Assembly (NCBI RefSeq): GCF_001658025.2
Contig: NZ_CP014007.2
Coordinates: 2,108,001-2,172,000, forward strand
Length of the DNA stretch: 64,000 nucleotides
Direction of reading: 5' to 3'
Source: Kosakonia oryzae
GTDB taxonomy: Bacteria > Pseudomonadota > Gammaproteobacteria > Enterobacterales > Enterobacteriaceae
In this document: positions 12,958-54,546 of the stretch, piece after piece
Layout of the letters: the number at the start of each line of letters is the position of its first letter
Position numbering within the stretch: the stretch's first letter is position 1
Made by a program: the position numbers and the translations under genes
Notes under the pieces: model-generated
Database searches by the model: none
Seen by the model: only the letters and a program-made list of their open reading frames with translations
Told to the model about the DNA's origin: nothing

Positions 12958-13626
12958 ATGCAAGAGAGCTTACAGCTAGTTATCGATTCCGCCCCTTATC
13001 TGCTCAAGGGGGCCGTGTTCACGCTGCAATTGAGTATTGGCGGCATGTTTTTTGGTTTGCTGTTCGGTTTTGTGCTGGCGCTGATGCGAATGTCGCCGCT
13101 GCTGCCGGTACGCTGGCTGGCGCGTTTTTATATCTCGATTTTTCGCGGTACGCCGCTGATTGCACAACTTTTTATGATCTATTATGGCCTGCCGCAGTTT
13201 GGCATCGAGCTGGATCCCATCCCGGCGGCGATGATTGGGCTTTCGCTTAACACGGCAGCGTATGCTGCGGAAACCTTGCGCGCCGCCATCTCGTCGATCG
13301 ATAAAGGGCAATGGGAAGCGGCCGCCAGTATCGGCATGACCTCCTGGCAAACGCTGCGCCGCGCGATCCTTCCGCAGGCCGCTCGCGTGGCGCTACCGCC
13401 GCTGAGCAACAGTTTTATCAGCCTCGTCAAAGATACTTCGCTGGCGGCTACCATTCAGGTGCCAGAGCTGTTCCGTCAGGCGCAACTGATCACCTCACGC
13501 ACGCTGGAAGTATTCACCATGTATCTGGCGGCATCGCTGATCTACTGGGTCATGGCGACCGTGCTCTCCACGTTGCAGAACTATTTTGAAAACCAGCTTA
13601 ACCGCCAGGAGCGTGATGCAAAATGA
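12958..13626 (+). CDS. tcyL: L-cystine ABC transporter permease TcyL (YecS)
   Basis: This is the inner-membrane permease of the cystine importer (222 aa). It is a His/Glu/Gln/Arg-type permease with several hydrophobic helices. The EAA loop that contacts the ATPase is EAAASIGMTSWQTLRRAILPQA. The start lies 18 bases after the dcyD stop, and its own stop overlaps the tcyN start by four bases, indicating coupled translation. Partners are TcyJ and TcyN in this window. Confidence 0.97.
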   Translation: MQESLQLVIDSAPYLLKGAVFTLQLSIGGMFFGLLFGFVLALMRMSPLLPVRWLARFYISIFRGTPLIAQLFMIYYGLPQFGIELDPIPAAMIGLSLNTAAYAAETLRAAISSIDKGQWEAAASIGMTSWQTLRRAILPQAARVALPPLSNSFISLVKDTSLAATIQVPELFRQAQLITSRTLEVFTMYLAASLIYWVMATVLSTLQNYFENQLNRQERDAK

Positions 13627-14375
13627 GTGCTATCGACGTTAAAAATCTGGTGAAAAAATTCCACGGGCAAACCGTCCTGCACGGTATCGATCTGGAGGTG
13701 CAGGAGGGAGAAGTGGTGGCGATTATCGGCCCTAGCGGGTCTGGTAAAACCACCTTATTGCGCAGTATTAATCTGCTGGAACAGCCGGAAAGCGGGACGA
13801 TCCGCGTGGGGGCCATCACCATTGATGCCTCTCGATCCTCTGGCGAGCAGAAAAAGGCTATCCGCCAGTTGCGCCAGCATGTCGGGTTTGTGTTCCAGAA
13901 CTTCAATCTGTTTCCACACCGCACGGTGCTGGAGAACATTATTGAAGGGCCGGTGATTGTGAAGGGCGAAGCGAAAGAAGAGGCTTGCGCGCGGGCGCGT
14001 CAGTTGCTGGAAAAAGTGGGGCTGAAAGGGAAAGAGGAGAGTTTTCCACGTCGTTTGTCCGGCGGCCAGCAGCAGCGCGTCGCGATTGCCCGTGCACTGG
14101 CGATGCGCCCTGATGTTATTCTTTTTGACGAGCCAACCTCCGCGCTCGATCCTGAACTGGTTGGTGAAGTGCTTAACACCATTCGCCAACTGGCGCAGGA
14201 GAAACGCACCATGGTGATTGTGACTCATGAGATGAGTTTTGCCCGCGATGTGGCGGACAGGGCGATTTTTATGGATCAGGGGCGCATTGTGGAGCAGGGG
14301 CCAGCGAAACTGCTGTTTTCCCAGCCGCAACATCCACGAACCCGGCAGTTTCTGGAAAAATTCCTGATGCAATGA
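13623..14375 (+). CDS. tcyN: L-cystine ABC transporter ATP-binding protein TcyN (YecC)
   Basis: This is the ATPase subunit of the TcyJLN importer (250 aa). Walker A is GPSGSGKTTLL, the ABC signature is RLSGGQQQRVAIARALA and Walker B is VILFDEPTSALDPE, followed by the switch histidine in VTHEMSFA. The start overlaps tcyL (ATGA). An imperfect hairpin (CGCGATTC/GAATCGCG, 14382-14413) follows the gene and may end the operon. Confidence 0.97.
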   Translation: MSAIDVKNLVKKFHGQTVLHGIDLEVQEGEVVAIIGPSGSGKTTLLRSINLLEQPESGTIRVGAITIDASRSSGEQKKAIRQLRQHVGFVFQNFNLFPHRTVLENIIEGPVIVKGEAKEEACARARQLLEKVGLKGKEESFPRRLSGGQQQRVAIARALAMRPDVILFDEPTSALDPELVGEVLNTIRQLAQEKRTMVIVTHEMSFARDVADRAIFMDQGRIVEQGPAKLLFSQPQHPRTRQFLEKFLMQ

Positions 14376-14664
14376 ACATGGCGCGATTCCGCACGCCTGT
14401 TTGCTGAATCGCGTTAATTGACCTTAACCTAAATTTTTGGGGCGGAATTAATGGCGTGCCGTTGCTGCGGCTATTTTTCGCGTATATCCCTGCAATTATC
14501 CAATAGTCACGCAGTTTTTCCTGTCGGTTGCCAGCATTAAATCCGGCAGCCTGTGCAACTTATTTCCACATTAGCCGATATTTTATATTTATAATTAAGT
14601 TTTATGTGTTAGCTTAATGTATACATAATAATGATTATTAAAACCAGGGGTATTACCGGTCGGT

Positions 14665-15387
14665 ATGCAGGATAAAGACTTTTTTACCTGGCGGCGCGAA
14701 ATGATGTCGCGCTTCCAGGAAATGACAGTAGCTAAGGACGTTTATACAGAGTTACAGCGGCAAACACAGCTGCTGGAGTTTGATTATTTCTCCCTGTGCG
14801 TTCGCCATCCGGTGCCCTTCACGCGCCCGAGGATGAGCGTTGAAACGACGTATCCGCAGGCCTGGATGCAGCATTATCAGGCGGAGAATTACTTTGCCAT
14901 TGATCCGGTGCTCAAAGCCGAAAATTTCATTCAGGGCCATTTGCCCTGGAGTGACAAGCTCTTCCAGGATGCGATGGTATTGTGGGATGCTGCGCGGGAT
15001 CATGGCCTGCGGAAAGGAATCTCGCAGTGTCTGATGCTGCCTAATCATGCGCTGGGTTTTCTCTCGGTCTCGCGTAGCAGCCTGCTTGGCAAAATGATGC
15101 CTGACGATGAGATTGAACTGCGGTTGCAGACGCTGGTGCAGCTCAGCCTGCTGGCGCTTACGCGACTGGAAGATCAGATGGTGTTGACGCCGGAGATGCG
15201 CTTCAGTAAGCGTGAGCGTGAGATATTGAAATGGACGGCGGAAGGCAAGACTTCGGCGGAAATCGCCATGATTTTGTCGATCTCTGAGAATACCGTCAAT
15301 TTTCACCAGAAAAATATGCAGAAGAAATTCAATGCGCCGAATAAAACGCAGATTGCCTGTTATGCGGCAGCGACCGGAATGATTTGA
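14665..15387 (+). CDS. sdiA: LuxR-type quorum-sensing receptor SdiA
   Basis: SdiA binds acyl-homoserine lactones made by other bacteria and regulates transcription. The product has 240 aa, as in E. coli. Residues ~1-165 form the autoinducer-binding domain. Residues ~173-240 form a GerE/LuxR helix-turn-helix (FSKREREILKWTAEGKTSAEIAMILSISENTVNFHQKNM). No luxI homologue is in the window, so it is an orphan receptor here. The AT-rich 289-base upstream gap holds an AATAATGATTATT palindrome at 14627-14639 of unknown meaning. A terminator shared with the convergent yecF follows. Confidence 0.96.
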   Translation: MQDKDFFTWRREMMSRFQEMTVAKDVYTELQRQTQLLEFDYFSLCVRHPVPFTRPRMSVETTYPQAWMQHYQAENYFAIDPVLKAENFIQGHLPWSDKLFQDAMVLWDAARDHGLRKGISQCLMLPNHALGFLSVSRSSLLGKMMPDDEIELRLQTLVQLSLLALTRLEDQMVLTPEMRFSKREREILKWTAEGKTSAEIAMILSISENTVNFHQKNMQKKFNAPNKTQIACYAAATGMI

Positions 15388-53905: not shown

Positions 53906-54107
53906 TCTGGAATAATCCGAACGGTTTTTATTGTATCGAAAATAATTAATCTAAATGTAATTAATAAAAACATTCCTCTCATGAATAATTAAATTATTTA
54001 TTCGTTATTAATAAAATTGTGATTAAGGACACATTGTATGAATTCTGTATCGTCTACTTTTAATTTGTGTTTGAGATTTATCTAATGCGCAAAACAAGGA
54101 GGTGAGA

Positions 54108-54398
54108 ATGGGGGAAATAGTGGGTGGCTATGTTATTGACCCTGCGGTGAACATCAATGAAAAAGGAATGACAAAAGATCAGGTATCCCGGTTTATAACA
54201 GCGTTTGAAGGGATCGTCGGAGCGAAATATTTGCCGCTAATGTATATTGGTAGTCAACTGGTTGCTGGCCATTTGTACGCTTATATTGCTCAACGCACTT
54301 TTATTCATTCCCAGTCAGTTGAGGTTACTCTGGTCAAGGTCGTTATATATGAGTCATTTGACAATGAATTAGCTATCCACTCGATTAGTGAGATCTGA
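54108..54398 (+). CDS. Cystatin (stefin)-like protein, putative cysteine-protease inhibitor
   Basis: This 96-residue protein, with a perfect AAGGAGG site five bases before ATG 54108, has no signal peptide or membrane helix. Three features fit cystatins: a Gly-Gly pair near the N terminus (G6-G7), a helix-like segment (SRFITAFEG, ~27-35), and Q50-L51-V52-A53-G54 in GSQLVAGHLYAYIA. That matches the QxVxG wedge of stefins and phytocystatins. The overall spacing GG - helix - QxVxG - strands is that of the ~98-residue stefins. A second PW-type hairpin is not evident. It is likely to be an intracellular inhibitor of papain-like proteases; host or plant targets are only inference. The AT-rich surroundings suggest gene transfer. 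Confidence 0.65.
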   Translation: MGEIVGGYVIDPAVNINEKGMTKDQVSRFITAFEGIVGAKYLPLMYIGSQLVAGHLYAYIAQRTFIHSQSVEVTLVKVVIYESFDNELAIHSISEI

Positions 54399-54513: not shown

Positions 54514-54546
54514 GTCCGCCTCTGGTGAGGCGGACAATTTTTTTTA
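54514..54546 (+). terminator. Terminator between the cystatin-like gene and argS
   Basis: The 9-bp stem GTCCGCCTC/GAGGCGGAC with a TGGT loop is followed by eight T on the plus strand. On the minus strand it sits at the end of argS with only TGTTT behind, so it serves the plus-strand gene best. Confidence 0.85.

Follow-up and report, generated by a model that had tools for sequence, protein, structure and literature searches.

The window analysed here comprises 64,000 nucleotides of Kosakonia oryzae DNA (contig NZ_CP014007.2, positions 2,108,001 to 2,172,000 of the forward strand), and the subject of this analysis is a short stefin-like gene at 54108..54398, situated between a gene for a GH88-family hydrolase (PF07470) and argS. 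An MFS transporter gene and flhE lie further upstream in the window. The following features were identified at and around the gene.

54096..54105, + strand: ribosome-binding site AAGGAGGTGA, 2 bases ahead of the ATG (direct read; comparison with three other Kosakonia)
54108..54398, + strand: stefin-like gene, 96 amino acids, no Cys, no signal peptide by eye (direct read, purifying selection, family profile)
54123..54128, + strand: Gly6-Gly7, counterpart of the cystatin N-terminal Gly (sequence; in the alignment it falls at the GG[WY] block that most relatives have)
54174..54203, + strand: predicted helix, residues 23-32 (AlphaFold2)
54255..54269, + strand: QLVAG, residues 50-54, the QxVxG loop between strands 40-51 and 55-66 (sequence and model)
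54514..54535, no strand assigned: terminator-like stem between the stefin gene and argS, its T run being on the + side (consensus scan)

The initial annotation had described a 96-residue open reading frame (ORF) with Gly-Gly at residues 6-7, the segment SRFITAFEG at residues 27-35 and Q50-L-V-A-G54, and a direct read of the sequence confirmed all of these. The near-perfect ribosome site claimed there is also borne out. Among the three further Kosakonia compared, AAGGAGGTGA is unchanged in one, and the remaining two each show a single-base difference. The ORF list starts the gene at a GTG six bases upstream of the ATG, and since this GTG falls inside the ribosome site the ATG is preferred. Comparison with the three other Kosakonia genomes yielded 1, 2 and 14 nonsynonymous versus 8, 7 and 22 synonymous differences, corresponding to ratios of nonsynonymous to synonymous substitution rates (dN/dS) of 0.034, 0.078 and 0.148, respectively, and the ORF thus evolves as a real gene under purifying selection. 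In the same pairs argS and the GH88 gene have ratios of 0.03-0.04, the stefin ratio being higher in two of the three.

The protein displays the traits of type 1 cystatins, the stefins, being 96 residues long, single-domain and free of Cys, with an N-terminus (MGEIVGGYVIDP) in which inspection revealed no signal sequence, in agreement with the initial annotation. Of the two descriptions, stefin-like and phytocystatin-like, the former is the better supported: LARFAV is the helix motif of phytocystatins, and the window protein instead has VSRFIT, of which F29 alone is well kept among relatives. Cystatins block papain-like proteases by filling their active-site cleft with a wedge built from the N-terminal Gly, the QxVxG loop and a second hairpin. 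As judged from the sequence, two of these three elements, the N-terminal Gly and QxVxG, are present. QxVxG occurs in no other of the 89 window ORFs of 80-130 amino acids, and it is found in all 33 rows of the family tree, which do not include the broken-looking G241 copy that has lost it; the K. arachidis counterpart, QRVTG, retains the pattern. By sequence comparison, the putative region of the second hairpin reads SFDNE in the window protein and PL.G in many relatives; Leu-Pro are the contact residues there in stefins. The segment between Gly-Gly and the helix is longer in the subgroup of the window protein.

The AlphaFold2 model consists of one helix followed by four antiparallel strands, which is the cystatin order, and places QLVAG on the first long hairpin of the predicted fold. 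Structural comparison with VIA-align ranked cystatins or stefins in rows 1-8. The initial annotation had staked its proposal on such a fold and on the absence of a match to an unrelated family, and Pfam, NCBIfam and PHROGs yielded none; the match to PF00031 that it had suggested looking for is absent up to an expectation value (E) of 10, and membership was reached via intermediate relatives.

Kinship with accepted cystatins was examined by sequence profiles. Searched alone against the PDB, the window protein has a lone match at E 1.8, to a cystatin. With the window protein among its rows, the A4 profile gave 13 PDB matches up to E 10, all 13 of them cystatins (best 2.3e-8), and the A3 profile, made of five domains from four loci with the window protein excluded, gave 19, of which the first 18 are cystatins. 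A relative from Aureibacter matches PF00031 at E 0.0015, under the curated cut-off, while G776 and G778, of the same order as the window genome, encode proteins above that cut-off and both are recovered by A6, a profile of 17 rows. The cleanest test employed a 22-row profile excluding Kosakonia, G140, G056, G143, the genus g103 and the cystatin rows. This profile scored the window protein at 36.7 bits and the three cystatin rows at 29.8 (G778), 27.8 (G922) and 26.1 (G776), of which G778 and G776 were tested against Pfam, whereas 2000 shuffled versions of the window protein reached 9.0 bits at best and the next match among the 461 window ORFs had E 0.28. On this profile evidence the relationship of the window protein to accepted cystatins is significant, and it runs through intermediates.

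Within Kosakonia the gene is found in 4 of 15 genomes, the own included, at 85-100% identity, and in all four carriers it stands between the GH88 gene and argS. The GH88 gene adjoins argS within the fetched flank in 13 of the 15 genomes, including the four carriers, and was not seen in the 1.5-kb argS flank of the other two. Nine genomes have this adjacency and no stefin gene; in eight of them 40-260 bases separate the aligned ends, and in one 693 bases. The latter gap (L029 808-1500), which in others is the place of the stefin gene, holds a transposase-like ORF that by eye resembles IS200. When the flanks of all 11 genomes lacking the stefin were searched with a profile, no stefin remnant emerged at E 1. 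Since the gaps of these other Kosakonia are without stefin or remnant, and one has a transposase-like ORF, the gene is an additional element at a site open to insertions, and gain and loss fit these data alike. The initial annotation had described the locus as AT-rich and lying beside the rhi insertion, and had on these grounds suggested a possible gain by transfer. The AT-richness stands, with a G+C content of 42% for the gene against 53% for the window, and 28% in the gap upstream; arrival together with the rhi genes was rejected, given that the GH88-argS adjacency is so much more widespread than the stefin gene.

Beyond the genus, a search with the single protein detected 8 of 392 genomes of the family, the own included, and the A6 profile 19 of these 392, in 12 of 154 genera. 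In an order-wide draw A6 matched 31 of 394 genomes, 16 strongly and 15 weakly (E 7e-7 to 9e-4); 14 of the 15 weak relatives were readable, in frames of 118-180 amino acids with signal-like N-termini by eye. A class-wide search with A2, a profile of nine near relatives, matched only the window's own genome among 369. The GH88-argS site is also occupied in G140, of another genus, by a stefin 38% identical to that of the window (L040 7211-7498). In the tree this stefin pairs with the G056 copy, which comes from a different locus (support 97/90), and the node uniting these two with Kosakonia has support 87/68; the copies at this site in Kosakonia and G140 are thus perhaps separate arrivals. The 33-row tree includes three of the 11 matched g455 genomes and one of the 12 of f201 (G922), and leaves out G1076, G184, G241 and the second G368 copy. 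The G257 fragment is in A2, and absent from A6 and the tree. Of L053 and its near copies L054, L055 and L056, L053 alone represents the group in A6 and in the tree; L052 was used for A6 and left out of the tree.

Other relatives occupy unrelated sites, plasmids of Bradyrhizobium, Persicobacter and Aureibacter and eight contigs of the virus collection, and the copies in G241, G257 and the second of G368 look broken. The Aureibacter plasmid protein (L017 2974-3537) has two tandem stefin domains. On one virus-collection contig (L051 3-5255) the stefin domain is C-terminal in a frame of surface type, 1,751 amino acids long or more, with Cu_amine_oxidN1 and cadherin-like domains, and in L072 (G355:C1, about 3273340-3273570) it occupies the second half of a 252-residue protein for which Pfam gave no match at E 0.01. 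In L045 some 6 kb separate the stefin P0002 (7398-7670, - strand) from a gene for a CD-NTase (SMODS and AGS_C; 13463-14734, + strand), and the same region includes a PLD-like gene as well as genes for DUF4756 and DUF6387 proteins; PADLOC matched neither P0002 nor the window protein. The window protein had no match at E 1 in plasmid and phage collections, while P0002 as query matched three plasmids and no phage. In scans of viral contigs relatives were found in none of 25 and none of 51 stretches, the A3 profile matching 8 of 25, and the stefin gene with its flanking gaps had no match among 20,395 E. coli records. A Bacteroidetes match (L003; 32% identity over window-protein residues 19-94, in a longer frame without QxVxG) was judged to be chance and dropped, and chance was likewise assumed where a single relative weakly matched an unrelated Pfam family (E 0.062 to 0.28).

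The tools employed support a real gene, kinship with the cystatin superfamily and a predicted helix with four strands presenting QLVAG on a hairpin, and the cystatin interpretation of the initial annotation is in this respect supported by both profiles and model. The window protein is probably a divergent bacterial stefin, a family-1-like cystatin, and a putative inhibitor of papain-family (C1A) cysteine proteases acting by the predicted wedge. In this mechanism the wedge plugging the active-site cleft of the protease would consist of the N-terminal segment with Gly-Gly, which is flexible, the hairpin bearing QLVAG and the second hairpin, near residues 83-87. Searches of the own genome with PF00112 and PF03051 gave no match at E 0.1, each being positive in 3 of 14 control genomes, so control of an own C1 enzyme is unlikely and the target may be foreign, most likely proteases of a plant or another eukaryote met by the bacterium, which would be reached by cell lysis or some export route. 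K. sacchari is described as plant-associated, and this association, together with the precedent of Cip1 discussed below and the lack of an own C1 match, makes a plant or other eukaryotic protease the first guess.

Several observations weigh against this interpretation. The window protein matches no family in Pfam, NCBIfam or PHROGs even at E 10, and PF00031 matches nothing in its genome at E 0.1. None of the three PDB matches of the A2 profile is a cystatin, and a profile of the three bacterial cystatins alone finds the window protein only at E 2.9, fourth of seven matches; since it fails to single out the protein, the cystatin link depends on intermediate relatives. The model has low confidence in residues 1-20, which include Gly-Gly, and a model from Kosakonia rows alone keeps the order of elements at a predicted local distance difference test (pLDDT) score of 53. 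Two residues past QxVxG the window protein has Leu-Tyr where most relatives have Asn-Tyr, and no export signal was seen by eye. In Foldseek the best match has E 6.7e-3, none reaching 0.001, and ranks 2-4 are putative ketosteroid isomerases, which are NTF2-like. These ranks and the missing Pfam match would suit a small protein unrelated to cystatins, NTF2-like or of another alpha+beta fold, in which QxVxG arose by chance, but the profile scores against shuffles and against the PDB, the cystatins heading the structural rows and the invariance of QxVxG in the alignments make this very improbable.

The main rival retains the cystatin fold and proposes an intracellular immunity factor against papain-like proteases from competing bacteria or mobile elements. 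The strong ribosome site, the absence of a signal peptide by eye and the patchy presence as a single gene are consistent with it, as are the location of P0002 in a region with CD-NTase (SMODS) and PLD-like genes and that of another, plasmid-borne relative close to a type III restriction gene and to genes for transposases. However, no toxin or C1 peptidase was recognised among the window neighbours (four genes through Pfam), nor was a conserved neighbour of this kind seen by eye in 12 neighbourhoods (Pfam being applied to nine L045 genes only), and both the relative within a large surface-type protein and the signal-like N-termini, by eye, of weaker cystatin-type relatives point outside the cell, so that we regard this explanation as unlikely. 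A similarly doubtful alternative is that the fold was kept for another binding role and inhibition was lost, a trend reported for vertebrate cystatins in PMC2784779. In favour of it are the length of the Kosakonia branch, at 1.1 changes per column, the loss of Asn from the QVVxGxNY block and the lack of the N-terminal Gly in the three relatives of genus g103; yet QLVAG and Gly-Gly are intact, K. arachidis still conforms to QxVxG, and the gene is under purifying selection.

Regarding the divergent stefin as the preferred interpretation, its closest counterparts are the bacterial stefins of Kordis and Turk (2009; PMC2784779), reported from eight phyla and 17 genera and proposed to act on cysteine proteases of eukaryotic hosts. 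The remark in the initial annotation that few bacterial cystatins are described is fair, but eight phyla and 17 genera with stefins had already been listed in 2009. The window protein resembles these stefins as a single-domain cystatin of intracellular type with QxVxG and a patchy distribution, but its subgroup differs from those described there in the longer segment between Gly-Gly and helix and in lacking a PF00031 match. Kosakonia is not among the 17 genera listed, whereas Erwinia/Pectobacterium is. With the eukaryotic type 1 cystatins 6i1m (Fasciola), 1stf (human stefin B) and 8gqq (Dictyostelium cystatin A2) the Cys-free window protein shares the predicted fold, the QxVxG hairpin and the N-terminal Gly; unlike them it is known from sequence and model, and identity in the structural rows is 14-19%. 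The phytocystatins 3ima (tarocystatin) and 2w9p (potato multicystatin) differ by their LARFAV, and Z differences under 1 are ties which do not support a special kinship. A functional precedent, by analogy, is Cip1 of Pseudomonas syringae, a bacterial inhibitor of plant papain-like proteases that contributes to virulence on tomato (PMC5014320); unlike the window protein it is secreted and has chagasin-like motifs, and it belongs to a different inhibitor family.

In a literature search, with subscription papers mostly outside its coverage, neither an experimental test of a bacterial stefin nor a report of a Kosakonia cystatin came to light. From this and the list of 2009, bacterial stefins are a known kind, while the Kosakonia member and its subgroup appear to be new. 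A scan with PF00031 misses members such as the window protein. It is tentatively possible that the stefins of a rapidly evolving enterobacterial branch, which family databases do not see, serve plant-associated Kosakonia by inhibiting papain-like proteases of plant immunity, or ones entering the cell, and reach their target without a classical signal peptide. The protein is small and free of Cys, the genus is plant-associated and most sampled species lack the gene, and the idea of a host protease as target is therefore directly testable.
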